64,000 nucleotides of DNA from Leptolyngbya sp. KIOST-1 (GTDB lineage: Bacteria > Cyanobacteriota > Cyanobacteriia > Phormidesmidales > Phormidesmidaceae): the NCBI RefSeq assembly GCF_000763385.1, contig NZ_JQFA01000004.1:1922001-1986000 (forward strand), written 5' to 3'. The translations under genes and the position numbers were made by a program. Shown here one piece after another: positions 40,870-48,050 of this stretch. The notes beneath the pieces were generated by a model. That model saw only the letters and a program-made list of their open reading frames with translations, ran no database searches and had not been told where the DNA came from. Positions within the stretch are counted from its first letter, which is position 1, and each line of letters opens with the position of its first letter.

Positions 40870-42294
40870 ATGGCACAGAGTTTTGGTGTAATTGGCCTCG
40901 CCGTCATGGGCGAGAACCTGGCCCTCAACGTTGAGAGCAAGGGCTTTCCGGTGGCCGTGTACAACCGCACCGCTGCGGTGACCGAGCGCTTTATGGAAAA
41001 GCGCGCCCAGGGCAAAAACGTCAAGGCGACCTACAGCCTCGAAGAATTTGTCCAGTCCCTGGAGCGTCCCCGTCGCATTCTGGTGATGGTGAAGGCGGGG
41101 GCTCCGGTGGATGCGGTGATCGATCAGCTGCGCCCACTGCTGGACGACGGCGACATGATTATGGACGGCGGCAACTCCCTCTACGAAGACACGGAGCGCC
41201 GCACCAAGGATCTGGAATCCACCGGCCTGCGGTTTATTGGCATGGGCGTGAGCGGTGGCGAGGAGGGAGCCCTGCTTGGCCCCAGCCTGATGCCGGGCGG
41301 CACCCGCGCCGCCTACGACTCCATCGAGCCAATCGTAAAGAAAATTGCCGCCCAGGTGGATGACGGCCCCTGCGTCACCTACATTGGCCCTCGCGGGGCG
41401 GGCCACTACGTCAAAATGGTGCACAACGGCATTGAGTACGGCGATATGCAGCTGATTGCCGAGGCCTACGACCTGATGAAAAACGTTCTGGGTCTCGACC
41501 ACAACCGGCTGTTTGAGGTATTCAGCGAGTGGAACCTCACCGATGAGCTCAACTCGTTCTTGATTGAAATCACCGCCGATATTTTCACCAATATCGACAG
41601 CGACACCAACAAGCCTCTGGTGGAGCTAATCATGGATGCGGCCGGCCAAAAAGGCACCGGGCGCTGGACAGTGATGAGCGCCCTGGAGCTGGGGGTGGGC
41701 ATTCCCACCATCACGGCAGCGGTGAATGCGCGGATTATGTCGTCGATCAAAGAGGAGCGGGTGGCGGCCTCCAAGCAGCTCGATGGCCCCACGGCCAGCT
41801 TTGATGGCGATGTCAAAGCCATGGTGAACAAAATCCGCGATGCCCTCTACTGCTCCAAAATTTGCTCCTACGCCCAGGGGATGGCGCTGATTGGCGCGGC
41901 CTCCAAGCACTACGAGTACGACGTCAACCTGGGCGAAACGGCTCGGATCTGGAAGGGGGGCTGTATTATTCGGGCCGGGTTCCTGAATAAGATCAAGCAC
42001 GCCTACGACGAAAACCCCAGCCTGCCGAACCTGCTGCTGGCCCCGGAGTTTAAGCAGACGATTCTCGATCGCCAGTCGGCCTGGCGCGAGGTGGTAGCAA
42101 TGGCGGCGACCTTTGGTATTCCGGTGCCAGCCTTTAGCGCTTCGCTGGACTACTTTGACAGCTACCGCCGCGATCGCCTGCCCCAGAACCTGACCCAGGC
42201 CCAGCGCGACTACTTTGGTGCCCACACCTACGTGCGGGTGGACAAGGAGGGTACCTTCCACACCGAATGGACCAAGGCCCCGGCCCGGGTTTAG
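40870..42294 (+). CDS. gnd: 6-phosphogluconate dehydrogenase, decarboxylating
   Basis: A 474-residue cytoplasmic enzyme of the oxidative pentose phosphate pathway, which turns 6-phosphogluconate and NADP into ribulose-5-phosphate, CO2 and NADPH. The Rossmann loop GLAVMGENLALN (residues ~8-19) and VYNRT mark NADP binding; the substrate site is seen in GVSGGEEGALLGPSLMPGG (near residue 127) and HNGIEYGDMQLIAEAYD (near residue 186), with the catalytic Lys/Glu region. The C-terminal HTEW tail is typical. Length is normal. In cyanobacteria it supplies NADPH in the dark. A strong terminator follows 49 bp after the stop. Confidence 0.96.
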   Translation: MAQSFGVIGLAVMGENLALNVESKGFPVAVYNRTAAVTERFMEKRAQGKNVKATYSLEEFVQSLERPRRILVMVKAGAPVDAVIDQLRPLLDDGDMIMDGGNSLYEDTERRTKDLESTGLRFIGMGVSGGEEGALLGPSLMPGGTRAAYDSIEPIVKKIAAQVDDGPCVTYIGPRGAGHYVKMVHNGIEYGDMQLIAEAYDLMKNVLGLDHNRLFEVFSEWNLTDELNSFLIEITADIFTNIDSDTNKPLVELIMDAAGQKGTGRWTVMSALELGVGIPTITAAVNARIMSSIKEERVAASKQLDGPTASFDGDVKAMVNKIRDALYCSKICSYAQGMALIGAASKHYEYDVNLGETARIWKGGCIIRAGFLNKIKHAYDENPSLPNLLLAPEFKQTILDRQSAWREVVAMAATFGIPVPAFSASLDYFDSYRRDRLPQNLTQAQRDYFGAHTYVRVDKEGTFHTEWTKAPARV

Positions 42295-42374: not shown

Positions 42375-42868
42375 GCGTGAGCGGCGGTCGAGTCTGGATT
42401 GCTCGTGCGCTGTGCCGTGACTAATGCGAGATGCTGCCTAATGTGCTGTCAAACCTAATTTTGTAGGTTGGGTGGCGCGCTAGCAGAACCCAACCAGGCT
42501 GACTGCCGTTGGGTACGCTCCGCTTTACCTAACCTGCGGGAACCCTAATTTTTAGCTTTGACGCTGTACTATCTATCCCCTGCCGCAGGGTGCAGGGCAT
42601 ACGCACTGCGATAGGTACTGTACCGATCGCCTGGGGGCAAAAGGATGCTCCAGTGAGCCTGACCTGGCTGCAAGAGCGACGATCGGGCATCGACGATGCC
42701 TGAATCCACGCACATCGGCGGACCTTTTTCACCACATCGCCCCTAAAATATCAGCAATTTTACAGTGGAAATAATTAGCTTTACCCAAGCTTCATGTAAC
42801 ATTTGGAACATCCAACACGGCGGAAAGGGTCTATTAAAGTGACTCGTTTGCTATGGATTTACACCACA
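42375..42868. other. Gene-free region between gnd and the curlin-like cluster
   Basis: About 490 bp. It includes an interspersed repeat at 42462-42539 and, further right, presumably the promoter of the cluster. An upstream in-frame ATG-like extension of the 42869 gene to 42803 does not look like coding sequence. Confidence 0.45.
42462..42539. repeat. Palindromic GTAGGTTGGGT-type interspersed repeat
   Basis: The unit starts TGTAGGTTGGGTGGCGCGC and ends TTTACCTAACCTGCGG, with internal AACCCAACC and GTTGGGTACGC. Such GTAGGTTGGGT palindromes are a widespread intergenic repeat in cyanobacteria. It is non-coding. Confidence 0.7.
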
Positions 42869-43288
42869 ATGAAACAGCGACATGGAGCATTTAGTTTATT
42901 AGGAGCTGCGGCTATCAGCACCCTGGCATTACCTGTTTTTGCCAACACAGCCACTCAGCAAACTGGCACACAGTCGGCAACTATTGATGGCAGCAACAAC
43001 CAGGTAATTCAGGTTATTAATCAAGTCAATATTAGCCATCCGGGCCTGGGCCGAGGGCTGGGTAACAACGATCGCCGTGGCACCGTACAGGGGACCGTGC
43101 AGGACAGTTACCAGACCGTCACCATCGACGGCAACGGCAACAGTGTCTACCAGGAAACCAACCAGATCAACCAGCAGCGGCAGGTGCCGGGGCGGGGCCA
43201 GGGCGTTCGCCCCAGCAATGATGACGACAAGCGGGGCAATGGCCGAGGCCAGGGGCGAGGTCAGGGCCGCGATCGCGACGACGACTAA
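42869..43288 (+). CDS. Secreted protein with two curlin-like Q/N/G repeats
   Basis: About 139 residues from the ATG at 42869 (MKQRHGAFSLL); the frame extends upstream without looking like a protein. A signal peptide ends at VFA (about residue 26). The mature part has two similar units: TQSATIDGSNNQVIQVINQVN (around residues 34-54) and SYQTVTIDGNGNSVYQETNQIN (around residues 80-101). The shared pattern, IDG-x-x-N-x-V-x-Q-x-x-x-Q-x-N, resembles the strand-turn-strand units of curlin amyloid subunits. The C-terminus is a Gly/Arg/Asp-rich, probably disordered tail. It is the first of five small secreted proteins; assembly into a surface fibre is inferred, not shown. Confidence 0.75.
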   Translation: MKQRHGAFSLLGAAAISTLALPVFANTATQQTGTQSATIDGSNNQVIQVINQVNISHPGLGRGLGNNDRRGTVQGTVQDSYQTVTIDGNGNSVYQETNQINQQRQVPGRGQGVRPSNDDDKRGNGRGQGRGQGRDRDDD

Positions 43289-43724
43289 ACCGCGCCTACC
43301 CAACGGTTGGGGGATAGCTAGCTTTGGCTGGCAATTCCCCAACCGCTAAGTACGCTTACAGATCGCTGGCGCGATCGTCAATTTGATTGAATGAATTCAG
43401 CCAGGATTCCGATTCATTCGGGTGCATTTTGCCTGAACCTCAAGCAGGCTTAAGGTCAACCTAATAACTCATTATCCCGGAATTAATTATGTTTGATTCC
43501 CAGAGGTTTTTGCGCCTTTGGGAATTTTTTAGCGATCAAAAATCTCTGCAACTTTGTTTTTTATTTCCGGAACCTTTGGGTAATTTCACGGGTCATAGAG
43601 GGTGTGATTCGATGAAATTGAATGCGGCCTGATTAGCGCAAAAAATTGCTTATTTGGTCAATTCCTAATCGTTGAATTCACGCGTTTACTCATTTGCACA
43701 CTTAGTATTGTTGAGGACGTTTCA
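43289..43724. other. Gene-free region between the two curlin-like genes
   Basis: About 435 bp, AT-rich. It contains an inverted repeat CGGTTGGGG (43304-43312) / CCCCAACCG (43337-43345) without a T tract and a terminator at 43497-43530. The remaining ~190 bp should hold the promoter of the 43725 gene, so the two paralogues are probably transcribed separately. Confidence 0.5.
43497..43530 (+). terminator. Rho-independent terminator after first curlin-like gene
   Basis: TTCCCAGAGG (43497-43506) pairs with CCTTTGGGAA (43515-43524) with one mismatch, 8-nt loop, followed by six T (43525-43530). Confidence 0.8.
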
Positions 43725-44084
43725 ATGCTGAAGCACATCTCTACTCTGGGTCTACTGGGTTTTGCCGCGCTGGGCTTTGTGGCCATGCCCGCCAGCGCTG
43801 ATACCGCTGTGGTGCAGCAGGGCACCCAGGACATTTACATCCAAGGGGATGGCAACGCGACCGTTCAGCGCAGCCAGCAGGTCAACCGGATTGAAACCCG
43901 GGGCTCCAACAGCCGCCAAAGCACGGGCATTGTGCAAGACATTTACCAGACCGGCACCGTGGTGGGCGACGACAACGCCGCTTACCAGGAGAGCAACCAG
44001 GTCAACATCATTCGCGACAGCCGTCCCGAAAACCGCGGTCGGGGCCACGGCCGCGGCGGGGCCCGCATCGACATTCGCAAGTAA
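43725..44084 (+). CDS. Secreted protein with two curlin-like Q/N/G repeats
   Basis: A 119-residue paralogue of the 42869 gene. Signal peptide residues 1-25 (ending PASA). Two repeat units follow: TQDIYIQGDGNATVQRSQQVN (around residues 35-55) and IYQTGTVVGDDNAAYQESNQVN (around residues 71-92), with the same G-x-x-N-x-x-x-Q-x-x-x-Q-V-N spacing as in the neighbour, and again a basic Gly/Arg-rich tail (GRGHGRGGAR). The spacing of Gln, Gly and Asn is like curlin repeats. Predicted secreted and self-associating. The next secreted protein starts 85 bp downstream. Confidence 0.75.
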   Translation: MLKHISTLGLLGFAALGFVAMPASADTAVVQQGTQDIYIQGDGNATVQRSQQVNRIETRGSNSRQSTGIVQDIYQTGTVVGDDNAAYQESNQVNIIRDSRPENRGRGHGRGGARIDIRK

Positions 44085-44169
44085 CCCCCTCGGGGGCCGT
44101 CGCTGGGCCTAGCGCTGGGCTGGGCTGCGGCCCCACCAACCACCCTCTTGCCACTGCAAGGAGACAACC

Positions 44170-44508
44170 ATGATGATTCCAACTTTAAAGGTCGCTCTGG
44201 CGGGGGCGATCGCCCTGGTCGGCCTGGCCCCTGCCGCTCTGGCCAGCTCGGTGTCGATCACCACCGACCGGGTGCAGCTTCAGGTGGGCAACGGCGGGCA
44301 GGTCTACATTCGGACCCTGGCCGAGCAGCCCCTGAACCTGGTCCGTCCGGCGATCGCGCCCCAGACCAGTGCCCCCCTGCCGCTGCCCAGAGCCAACTTC
44401 GTACCGGGCTGTACCGCGCGATCGCACAGTTCCTCCGCCACCCGGTCTACCCCCGGCGGCAATGTGGTCTACAGCGAAAACCGCAGCACCACTCAGGTGT
44501 GCCAGTAG
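44170..44508 (+). CDS. Small secreted protein of unknown function
   Basis: A 112-residue protein with a clear signal peptide (residues 1-26, ending ALAS) and the ribosome site AAGGAG (44158-44163). The mature part starts SVSITTDRVQLQVGNGGQVYI, a single weak echo of the neighbouring Q/N/G repeats, then a Pro-rich segment and two cysteines (PGCTARS, TQVCQ at the very end) that may form a disulfide. No known domain. Its position between curlin-like and other secreted proteins suggests a common surface role. Confidence 0.68.
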   Translation: MMIPTLKVALAGAIALVGLAPAALASSVSITTDRVQLQVGNGGQVYIRTLAEQPLNLVRPAIAPQTSAPLPLPRANFVPGCTARSHSSSATRSTPGGNVVYSENRSTTQVCQ

Positions 44509-44548
44509 CCCTGGGGCCATATTCGAACCCAATATAGGTGCCGTAACT

Positions 44549-44926
44549 ATGATCAAACCTCAGTACCTGCTGGGGCTCCTGTGCACCGGAGCCCTAGTGT
44601 CGTTTGCCCCTGGAGCATCCGCCCAGTGCGTAGTTGCCGACGTGGCGATTCAGGCCGCCATTCACGGCGGCTCAAAACCCGCAGAACAGGTCAACGACGT
44701 CGCCATCGATGCCGCTGGTCCCTGCGTGGGCAATACCAGCGTCAGCACCAGCCGCCAAATTCAGGTGGGGGGCACCGGGGAGGTGCGCCAGACCCGCCAG
44801 AGTCGCCACCAGCTGCGTGGCTCCGAGCGGACGGGCACCATTGGGCCTACTACTGGGCCAACCGTAGTCGTCCCGGTCGAAGTCCAGGTCGATGTCTACA
44901 ACCCGGCTGAGCGGCTGCGGCGATAG
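44549..44926 (+). CDS. Small secreted protein of unknown function
   Basis: About 125 residues from the ATG at 44549 (MIKPQYLLGLL); the open frame extends upstream into the previous gene but that part is a shadow. A signal peptide ends at ASA (about residue 24). The mature protein has two cysteines (AQCVVAD, GPCVGN), then STSRQIQVGGTGEVRQTRQSRHQL, again Gln-, Gly- and Thr-rich, and a Val-rich end. No known family. It lies 40 bp after the previous secreted protein and is probably co-transcribed with it. Confidence 0.66.
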   Translation: MIKPQYLLGLLCTGALVSFAPGASAQCVVADVAIQAAIHGGSKPAEQVNDVAIDAAGPCVGNTSVSTSRQIQVGGTGEVRQTRQSRHQLRGSERTGTIGPTTGPTVVVPVEVQVDVYNPAERLRR

Positions 44927-45128
44927 CCCCTGAAAAGGGAACCTATCGACCTCAAGTGGTGTCGTGTAAGCCTGACTTGGGCAGGGGGCGTTTGGTACGT
45001 CCCCTGCCCAGGCCAACGACAGCGGCGGCCATGCCTGAATTGAGCAACTGTGCTAACCTAGCTCAATTCTTCTAGCCAGCGCTAGAAGCCTGGTGTAGCC
45101 ACCCCCTTTTCCTGGAGATGTCATCGTC

Positions 45129-45617
45129 ATGCAGCATCCGTCGGCCCTTGGGGTTGCGCTCTTAATTTTGGTAGCGGTTACCGCCGTGGTGGGGCCTTCC
45201 TCCGCCAACGGCAATGCCGCGTTCGAGGGAACCTATCAGACCCTCGGCGCCATCTTATCTAGAGCCAGCGCCAGGGATGTTATGGACTCGTACCAGCGTC
45301 AAACCAACACCATCAGTCTCGATCGCGCCCACCTGGACGACCCCCATCTGCTGTCGGTCAGTGTGCCCGGCGGGGCCAGTCTGCAGGGCTACATCGAAAT
45401 CGACGGCCACACCCGCGTTCCGTTGAACAACAACTCAGAATTTATTGACATCAGCCCCCACCTGAACGAGGCGATCACCCGCATCACCATCGTGGGCAGC
45501 TACTCCCCCGCCTCCGCCTCGGTCTCGATCGCCTTCAACGGCCCCAACACGGTGGTGCAGCAGCAGACCGGCGGCACCGGGCGGATCAACTACCAGCTCA
45601 ATTTACTGGTGCAGTAG
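45129..45617 (+). CDS. Secreted protein of unknown function, last of the small secreted cluster
   Basis: A 162-residue protein with a signal peptide (residues 1-27, ending SSANG). The mature chain looks beta-rich: SVSVPGGASLQGYIEIDG, FIDISPHLNEAITRITIVGSYSPASASVSIAF and a last VVQQQTGGTGRINYQLNLLVQ that again carries the Q/G/N flavour of its neighbours. There is no cysteine. It may be a carrier, nucleator or cap for the curlin-like proteins, which is inference from position only. Confidence 0.68.
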   Translation: MQHPSALGVALLILVAVTAVVGPSSANGNAAFEGTYQTLGAILSRASARDVMDSYQRQTNTISLDRAHLDDPHLLSVSVPGGASLQGYIEIDGHTRVPLNNNSEFIDISPHLNEAITRITIVGSYSPASASVSIAFNGPNTVVQQQTGGTGRINYQLNLLVQ

Positions 45618-45719: not shown

Positions 45720-48050
45720 TTAGTCGAGCCCGGCGGTGGGGTGCCGGGGCGTGGCCAGGTAGGCCCGGTAGCCCCGGTGCCGGGTCCAGCTGATCGCGCC
45801 ATCGCGCTCGGTGCAGAAGACCTGAATGCCCCGCTGCAACAGCCGAGTTTCGGTGTCGGGGTCGATCGCTCGGGCAGAGGCGATCGCCACCGCCGGTGCC
45901 ACCGCCGCAATCACCGCCTCGTCCAGGGCCGCCCCGTTCCACCACAGCACCTGGCTACGGATCTCCGGCTGGGCCTGCACCCAGGCCCGCTGCCGATCGC
46001 GATCGCCAATGTCCGGGAACAGCAGCCAGCTCTGGTGGCCCAGCAGCGTCAGCCGCAGCCCCCGCTCCCCCGCCTGGAGGTACTGCACCTGCTGGCGATC
46101 GACCGCCTGGGTTTGGCCAGCACTGAGCAGTTGGAACTGTCCTCCAGTGGGGGCAGCGGCAAGGGCCGAACTGGCCCCGTAGAACTTGCGAATGGGGGCC
46201 TTAGCGGCAATGGTGCGCCAGTTTTCTCCGTCGCTGTCGTCGCCGTGGATAGCGCTGGACAGCCGATTGATGCCCGCCTGCCGCAGAAAGGGCACCACAG
46301 TGTAGAACGCCGTTTTGTCGGTGCCGCTGTTGACAACCATTGCGCTGCCCCTGGTCTGCACCACCATCACCGCATCCTGCCCCGCCGCCAGCACCGTAAC
46401 CTGCGAGAGCGTTGCCCCCCGGTACAGCAGCGGCCCCAAAGCCACCAGGCCAATCAGCAGCGCCACCAGGCCGCGCCGCCGCGCCGCTGGCCAAATTCCC
46501 AGCCCCCAGCCCCACAAACCGTAGAGCCCGTAGAGCCCAAACATCTGGCCCAGGGAAATGTGGCCGGTGGCCAGGGCGCTGCCGGGCAGGCCCACCTCCC
46601 AGCGCACCAGGGCAATCAGCAGGTGGGTGGGCAGCCCCAGGGGCCAGGCGATCAGGCTGCCCAGCTCCGGCCACACCACCGCCCCCAGGCCGCTGACCAT
46701 GCCCCCCAGGCTGATCACCATCACCAGCGGTGTGGCCACCATATTCAGCAGAATGCTGTAGGTGGTGAGGGTGTTGAAGTAGTAGAGCGACAGCGGAATC
46801 GTCCACAGATAGGCGGCCAGGGGTACCGCCGCGATCGCCGCCAGGGTGGTCGGCAGCCACTCCAGCCGCTGGGCGATGGGCTTGGCCGCCACCATCAGCC
46901 CCAGGGTGGCCATCACGCTGAGGCGAAAACCAATGTCGTCGATCCAGCCGGGGTTGACCAGCAGCAGCAGGGTGACCGCCACCAGCAGGCAGCCCAGGGG
47001 TTTGACGCTGCGCTCCAGGGCCAGGCCCACCAGCGCCCCAAACCCCATCACCGCCGCCCGCAGCACGCTGGGCTGCCCGCCGGTAATCAGCACGTAAACC
47101 GCCAGGGTCACCGTACCTGCGATTAGCTTGGCCCGCCCCGGGTTGGCCAGTCGATCGGCCACGGCCCGCTGCCCCGCGATCGCCAGCACCACCCCCAGCA
47201 CCAGCGACACATGGAAGCCGCTGGCCGCCAGCGTGTGGGCCATGCCCGCCTGAATAAACGCATCCTGAAGGTCATAGGGCACCGTCACCGCCCGGCGGCC
47301 CAGGGCCATAGCGCTGACCAGCGGCCCGGCAGGGGTGCCCAGCCCCTGCTCATGGGCGCGGGCAATCCGCTGCCGCACCCGCCACAGGGCAAAGGGCGGC
47401 GGCGTCTGGCCCGGTTCGGGCTTTACGGCTGCGCCGACGAACCCGGCAAAGCAGCGCTGGCTGGCCAGGTACTGGCGAAAGTCAAAGGCGTTGGGGTTTT
47501 TGGCCAGGGCCGGGGCGTAGAGTTTGCCCCGCACCTGCACCCGCTGCCCCGGGTACAGGGCCTCAATCTGGTCGGCGGGCACTGTGACGTAGAGCCTGCC
47601 CTGGCGCAGGCTGGGGGCGCTGAGGGGATTGTTTTGGGCGTCTAGACGCCGCACCTGGTCAACCCTCAGCCACAGCTGGCCCCGACCGCTGCGGGCGAGG
47701 CGAGGCAGCTCCTGCACCTGGCCCCAAACGATTTGCTGCGCTCCGGCGGCATCGGCCTGGTTCAGCAGGTGGCTGATGTCGAGGGGGCCGGGGGCCGGGT
47801 AGCGGAGGCCGTAGTTGAGGGCGGCCAACAGCGCGATCGCCCCCGCGAGCAACCACTGAGCCGCCGTTGGGCCCCGATACCAGCGCGGCGACACCCCCAG
47901 GGCCGCCGCCCCGGCCACCCCGATCGCACTGATTCCTGCGATCGCCATCCCTGCCCCAGGGCTCATCCCCAGGTGACGCACCCACAGGCTCACCCACAGC
48001 AGCCCCACCCCGTAGGCGATCGCGCCCAGCACCCCTGCCAGATTGTTCAT
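45720..48050 (-). CDS. comEC: ComEC/Rec2-type DNA uptake channel protein
   Basis: A 776-residue inner-membrane protein of natural transformation that passes one DNA strand into the cytoplasm. Residues ~1-80 hold the first spans, residues ~80-215 the external OB-like domain (LYVTVPADQIEALYPGQRVQVRGKL), residues ~235-530 the competence membrane domain with HTLAASGFHVSLVLG near residue 275 and a conserved GGQPSVLRAAVM near residue 325. The C-terminal ~220 residues correspond in position to the metallo-beta-lactamase-like domain, but its metal motif is missing (HGDDSDG instead of HxDxDH). Transcribed alone on the minus strand. Confidence 0.92.
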   Translation of the reverse strand: MNNLAGVLGAIAYGVGLLWVSLWVRHLGMSPGAGMAIAGISAIGVAGAAALGVSPRWYRGPTAAQWLLAGAIALLAALNYGLRYPAPGPLDISHLLNQADAAGAQQIVWGQVQELPRLARSGRGQLWLRVDQVRRLDAQNNPLSAPSLRQGRLYVTVPADQIEALYPGQRVQVRGKLYAPALAKNPNAFDFRQYLASQRCFAGFVGAAVKPEPGQTPPPFALWRVRQRIARAHEQGLGTPAGPLVSAMALGRRAVTVPYDLQDAFIQAGMAHTLAASGFHVSLVLGVVLAIAGQRAVADRLANPGRAKLIAGTVTLAVYVLITGGQPSVLRAAVMGFGALVGLALERSVKPLGCLLVAVTLLLLVNPGWIDDIGFRLSVMATLGLMVAAKPIAQRLEWLPTTLAAIAAVPLAAYLWTIPLSLYYFNTLTTYSILLNMVATPLVMVISLGGMVSGLGAVVWPELGSLIAWPLGLPTHLLIALVRWEVGLPGSALATGHISLGQMFGLYGLYGLWGWGLGIWPAARRRGLVALLIGLVALGPLLYRGATLSQVTVLAAGQDAVMVVQTRGSAMVVNSGTDKTAFYTVVPFLRQAGINRLSSAIHGDDSDGENWRTIAAKAPIRKFYGASSALAAAPTGGQFQLLSAGQTQAVDRQQVQYLQAGERGLRLTLLGHQSWLLFPDIGDRDRQRAWVQAQPEIRSQVLWWNGAALDEAVIAAVAPAVAIASARAIDPDTETRLLQRGIQVFCTERDGAISWTRHRGYRAYLATPRHPTAGLD

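Follow-up and report, generated by a model that had tools for sequence, protein, structure and literature searches.

The minimal repeat of curli has been given as X6QXGX2NX10 (PMC3521004). Among cyanobacteria, EbfG1-4 of Synechococcus elongatus PCC 7942 are small secreted proteins of a short operon that have been proposed to form a matrix amyloid, and their secretion is aided by a peptidase-family protein and a microcin-processing homologue (PMC9981879). Five genes, designated A to E, were analysed in a window of Leptolyngbya sp. KIOST-1 (the window being the whole stretch of DNA that was analysed, 64,000 nucleotides). A-E form a conserved cyanobacterial cassette whose secreted proteins, on balance, probably build a surface or matrix fibre, working in the manner of curli and made of parts of its own.

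Genes of the locus and the repeat unit of A and B

The sequence-only reading had placed a cluster of five small secreted proteins at positions 42869-45617, and analysis of the ORFs found all five there, in the same direction, between gnd (40870-42294, + strand) and a comEC-type gene (45720-48050, - strand), both named from the sequence. Inspection showed a hydrophobic signal-like N-terminus in each of the five, weakest in E; those of A to D were read as Sec-type signal peptides ending in A-x-A.

Gene A, 42869-43288, + strand: secreted-type, with a pair of 24-residue curlin-like units and a charged tail rich in R/G/D; orthologues in Nodosilinea and other Leptolyngbyaceae
Gene B, 43725-44084, + strand: paralogue of A; two units and a short basic R/G-rich tail
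Gene C, 44170-44508, + strand: small secreted-type protein; conserved 'DRVQ.QV..NG.V.IRT' segment; C-terminal segment bracketed by Cys-Cys
Gene D, 44549-44926, + strand: small secreted-type protein; mature N-terminus QC; second conserved Cys
Gene E, 45129-45617, + strand: signal or anchor segment, then a domain predicted as a beta-sandwich (residues ~57-161), with a Q-rich hairpin at its end

A and B shared 46% identity over 103 residues. A TTG start at 42803 had been listed for A and was rejected, the alignment of relatives beginning at the ATG at 42869. In the Nodosilinea-type alignment, gene D contained an invariant VGGTG segment. The dN/dS values of A-E against six relatives were 0.07-0.38 where computable (A: 0.07-0.16), and these values indicate that the five are real, selected genes under purifying selection. 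Pfam and NCBIfam scans of A-E and ten distant relatives gave no family above the cut-off, and the same scans detected no PEP-CTERM sorting signal at the C-terminus of A-E.

By description, A and B were set apart from EbfG by their Sec-type A-x-A signal peptides and their repeat unit. The leader of EbfG is a double-glycine leader peptide; none was found by inspection in A-D. FapC of pseudomonads is a secreted subunit with imperfect Gln/Asn/Gly-rich repeats and accessory genes. The likeness to Fap is one of description only, and the cassette showed no genes of fap type.

A and B each contained two copies of a 24-residue unit, Q-x3-Q-x5-G-x2-N-x3-Q-x3-Q-x-N, with 0 occurrences in 16,500 composition shuffles, which bears out the earlier claim that two of the proteins carry paired curlin-like repeats.

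A unit 1, 42959-43030, + strand, residues 31-54: QTGTQSATIDGSNNQVIQVINQVN
A unit 2, 43100-43171, + strand, residues 78-101: QDSYQTVTIDGNGNSVYQETNQIN
B unit 1, 43815-43886, + strand, residues 31-54: QQGTQDIYIQGDGNATVQRSQQVN
B unit 2, 43935-44006, + strand, residues 71-94: QDIYQTGTVVGDDNAAYQESNQVN

The unit starts were 47 residues apart in A and 40 in B, with linkers of 16-23 residues, and two full units with the spacing kept were present in nearly every relative (17 A and 16 B proteins). Conservation was higher at the positions that would face inward in the curlin register (1.46 bits) than at those alternating with them (0.81 bits; permutation p 0.0017), a comparison that is partly biased, three inward positions having served to select the units. 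The AF2 model of B showed four strands, with two hairpins at the units, at low confidence (pLDDT 46). Taken alone, the i,i+4 spacing of Gln would also fit a helix. When the A profile was searched against PDB sequences, influenza haemagglutinin HA2 came up (E 0.004); the match lay in a T/N/Q-rich segment and was put down to chance.

The C-terminal tails of A orthologues ran to long poly-Asp (e.g., L062:12874-13323, L066:3925-4371, and L136:7904-8350), and those of B were Arg/Gly-rich. These tails could mean that paired subunits bear opposite charges, or could point to metal binding. A multi-unit relative of A/B lay downstream of E in two loci, and one of these, L121:9010-10113, which is related to the multi-unit protein of Rippkaea, had a PEP-CTERM-like tail (E 0.0038, under the Pfam cut-off).

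Judging from the signal peptides, A and B would be exported by Sec. The pattern of the units and the low-confidence model of B suggest that they may fold as beta-arches, and by analogy with curlin these would stack into fibres at the cell surface.

Distribution and block loss of the cassette

Among 57 relatives, B-type matches were found in 18 and D-type matches in 20. The order A-B-C-D-E was kept in nearly all of the 18 loci where the contig allows; the flanking genes varied, and comEC was missing beside the cassette in the more distant genomes. In a class-wide cyanobacterial sample of 388 genomes, drawn evenly yet with many members of the window's genus, profile matches were obtained in 35 genomes for A, 43 for D and 42 for E. 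D was the most widely found partner gene, and it was also present in 31 of the 35 genomes with an A-profile match. The cassette occurred in about 1 in 10 of the sampled cyanobacterial genomes, a proportion to be read with the sample's richness in the window's genus.

The arrangement (A/B)n-C-D-E was found in some 16 Nodosilinea/Leptolyngbyaceae loci and in about 20 loci of eight other families. A reading of about 40 further loci found (A/B)n-C-D-E, at times lacking C or E and with additional genes in some, in families f1, f6, f15, f23, f24, f26, f31, f32, and f35. The genes keep this order in at least nine cyanobacterial families, and the flanks are unrelated; lack of conservation in related genomes had been named beforehand as grounds for dropping the proposal. 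Two A patterns, scanned against the genomes of 84,980 species, gave 18 loci, all of them cyanobacterial (Nodosilinea, Phormidium, Leptolyngbya, Tildeniella and kin); such a scan reaches close relatives only.

In Rippkaea orientalis PCC 8801, the cassette was located on plasmid pP880101, where it spanned the plasmid's start. Three A/B genes came first, followed by C, D and E and then by a gene for a multi-unit protein of 358 residues; every product was annotated 'hypothetical protein'. The three A/B genes were in tandem, about 370 bases apart, and encoded one identical product, WP_012593050.1 (L189:1354-2385; NC_011721.1:49853-50884). Such tandem copies would supply a high dose of subunit. Rippkaea orientalis is a unicellular species; the cassette is therefore not filament-specific, and the suggested restriction to filamentous cyanobacteria has to be given up. 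A search of the literature on curlin- or curli-like proteins in cyanobacteria and on the Rippkaea accessions found no description of the cassette.

On contig 376 of genome G017 (28,534 bases; L064/L023), the cassette was present at both ends in opposite orientation with equal match scores, which could be either an error of assembly or a true inverted duplication.

A-D were missing as a block, with E retained, in two Nodosilinea genomes. DNA comparison of G008 (L168) with G018 (L056) showed that the two were collinear at 86-87% on both sides of A-D, and that about 2.3 kb with A, B, C and most of D was replaced by about 50 bp, with D reduced to its 3' end and E intact. A matching remnant of D was kept in G011, and E without A-D also stood beside comEC in G012, G020, G023, and G024. 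These absences indicate that A-D are a unit that can be lost together and that E has a role or persistence of its own.

Comparison with curli and the partner genes C, D and E

A and B resemble curli subunits in being small, putatively Sec-exported proteins encoded by two adjacent paralogous genes, and in a unit with the predicted design of strand, G-x-x-N turn and strand, with the conserved residues at odd positions before Asn and at even positions after it, the same parity as in curlin. They differ in the placing of Gln, which is at -13, -9, +4, and +8 (Asn = 0) in A/B and at -5 and +6 in curlin; in having two (or three) units with long linkers, whereas curlin has four or more tightly spaced repeats; and in the company of C, D and E instead of CsgE, CsgF and CsgG.

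The curlin repeat family PF07012 gave no match in the window proteins or in their own genome, and the E. coli control was matched. In the 388 cyanobacterial genomes it gave 1 match, on contig 36 of G196, which was not a cassette gene. The absence of csgE/F/G-type export genes, first remarked for the window, extended to the whole of its own genome, where the families PF03783, PF10614, and PF10627, which cover the three export proteins, had no match; CsgG was likewise found in none of the cassette-bearing genomes among the 57 relatives. Judged by such membership tests, the A/B cassette is not curli.

The motif Q-x-G-x2-N was not found in the A/B units of the window, which have I or V at the Q position (-5), and was present in some relatives (L121, L123, L125, L130, and L178-L180; Rippkaea-type and f15 genomes). 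Profiles of the units were compared by hhalign with the CsgA and CsgB units of E. coli K-12 (locus L140), with 60 column-permuted controls. Window-type units scored a probability of 3%, with 3 of the 60 controls as high, and matched CsgA/B in the G-x-x-N turn only. All units of the A/B family together scored 15.6% (0/60 controls as high), and the subset with Q at -5 scored 73% (0/60), a figure inflated by the choice of the subset on residues shared with curlin. The likeness between A/B and curlin appears to be one of design, which may have arisen by homology or by convergence.

It is improbable, in our estimate, that A and B share ancestry with CsgA/CsgB as true but diverged curli subunits and that cyanobacteria have replaced the genes for their export. 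Such an origin would accord with the shared parity of the conserved positions round the turn and with the score of the Q-x-G-x2-N subset above all 60 permuted controls; however, that score owes much to the selection of the subset for those very residues, short repeats converge easily, and neither PF07012 among the cassette genes of the 388 genomes nor CsgG among the cassette-bearing relatives was found.

The weaker Q/G/N echoes that had been reported in C, D and E did not hold up, as the scores of the A/B profile on these proteins were not above those of shuffles. Profile-profile comparison gave probabilities of 1.4% for A/B with C, 0.1% for A/B with E and 49.5% for A/B with D, the last aligned partly across signal-peptide-rich ends. 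By these comparisons C, D and E are separate conserved families. Iterated profiles suggested that C or D might share ancestry with A/B; this was rejected, since seed profiles without the signal peptides did not beat shuffles. Both C and D contained conserved Cys pairs, which fits a location outside the cytoplasm.

The E model was a nine-stranded beta-sandwich (pLDDT about 92 over residues 57-161). Its best PDB match was MmpS5, a middling one (Z 6.7, rmsd 3.1 A over 88 residues); the matches were of generic beta-sandwich type, none stood out, and CsgC was not among the matches listed. A sixth family, designated F ('QVTGDFNNV.Q.PNQN ... FQPGRT'), was observed in eight loci downstream of E, or of D where E was not found.

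Family F genes: L133:2366-2863, L131:4496-5005, L138:3028-3594, L134:2056-2616, L187:113-454, and in L178-L180

The predicted fold of E, a jelly-roll or Ig-like beta-sandwich, brings in a further explanation, namely that A-E are non-fibrous, beta-rich secreted proteins of the sheath or exopolysaccharide matrix that bind polysaccharide or calcium, the curlin likeness being convergence on G-x-x-N turns and Gln-rich strands. We regard this as possible and somewhat doubtful. It would agree with a sub-threshold match of one E relative to a glycosylhydrolase-like jelly-roll domain, with the Asp-rich A tails of many relatives, and with window-type units scoring no higher than controls against curlin. 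However, stacking repeats would require an invariant Gln ladder and paired units such as these, the identical tandem copies suggest a bulk subunit, and some relatives have full Q-x-G-x2-N repeats.

Upstream element, neighbouring signalling genes and proposed function

A GGAAC-GTC element was found upstream of both A and B.

GGAAC-N19-GTC element, 42805-42831, + strand: 64 bases upstream of A; kept at -64 in Nodosilinea-type loci as the spacer diverges
GGAAC-N18-GTC element, 43569-43594, + strand: about 156 bases upstream of B; same type

The strict form occurred three times in the 64-kb window, two of these upstream of A and B. In Nodosilinea-type genomes GGAAC-N18/19-GTC lay at about -64 from A and -155 from B, its boxes kept and its spacers divergent, and it was matched in 24 of the 35 A/B upstream regions, against 0.45 expected from shuffles; the pattern was set after the alignment had been seen and the genomes are related, so that the count is not independent. 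Among 56 regions upstream of distant cassettes it was found in 2, both from one locus, and it was found neither upstream of E nor upstream of the sigma-DUF1822 operon of the window's own genome. A scan for sigma-70 promoters and terminators returned chance-level hits only. The element resembles promoters of ECF sigma factors, sigma-E among them, except for a spacer longer by about two bases, and is a possible candidate for an ECF-sigma-type promoter. In the Nodosilinea lineage, an ECF-type sigma factor would read these promoters and switch on A and B-C-D together; coordinated expression of A and B-C-D is supported for this one lineage by the element they share.

Signalling genes stood beside cassettes in varied combinations (ECF-like sigma factor, DUF1822, CHAT-CHASE2, caspase, kinase, Tll0287/HAMP sensor, and phosphonate-type binding protein), and in four distant loci (L134, L139, L180, and L184) the cassette was adjoined by a DUF1822 gene and by a gene of the sigma-70 family whose matches were ECF-like.

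Signalling module, L134:5498-11111 (G135)
Signalling module, L139:2889-7717 (Rippkaea plasmid)
Signalling module, L180:8609-13795
Signalling module, L184:724-5572

In L134, which is from the same family as the window's genome, the cassette followed a sigma-DUF1822-CHAT/CHASE2-DUF928 module. The window's own genome contained a sigma-DUF1822-CHAT/CHASE2 operon, then a DUF928-like gene and a filamentous-haemagglutinin-like gene (L192:4607-13237; G000 contig 2, about 1.27 Mb), where every gene except DUF1822 takes its name from inspection or from its resemblance to L134. An ECF sigma factor with DUF1822 beside caspase-type genes has been noted (PMC8195603). A link between the sigma factor of the sigma-DUF1822 operon and the cassette stays a guess, because the element is rare at distant cassettes and absent before that operon and before E.

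Caspase, kinase, CHAT and CHASE2 neighbours in some loci, a patchy distribution, the plasmid location in Rippkaea and the loss of A-D as a block could also point to small, bacteriocin-like secreted proteins of competition or signalling with no structural part. We consider this very improbable, as the cassette had no immunity-like gene and no double-glycine leader, was under strong purifying selection instead of diversification, and has a repeat architecture.

The explanation by a surface or matrix fibre draws on the register of the units and their inward conservation, the cassette order, the co-occurrence of A and D, the tandem copies in Rippkaea, the multi-unit relative, the module neighbours at L134, the own-genome module followed by a haemagglutinin-like adhesin, and the purifying selection on A-E. 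Counted against it are the pLDDT of 46 for B, the presence of only two, long-linked units, the curlin score within the range of controls, the helix-compatible Gln spacing, and the fact that no outer-membrane exporter was identified for the cassette. In such a fibre, C and D might serve as disulfide-containing subunits of a minor or capping kind, and E might be a separate beta-sandwich accessory, serving as anchor, polysaccharide binder or chaperone; both assignments are guesses. A more specific proposal is plausible and is put forward tentatively: a functional amyloid or fibre new to cyanobacteria, in which a distinct beta-arch repeat is joined with the accessory families C-E, non-CsgG export and ECF-type regulation, present in at least nine families and partly plasmid-borne.

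The cluster finding was confirmed and proved broader than first claimed, and the cassette is a fair candidate for a new surface-fibre system. Little is known of the fibres that make up cyanobacterial matrices and surfaces, and the EbfG proteins of one Synechococcus were the sole cyanobacterial amyloid candidates found in the literature search. With the cassette, tests of how mats, biofilms and sheaths are made can start from named genes; it also bears on how curlin-like subunits exit the cell without CsgG.
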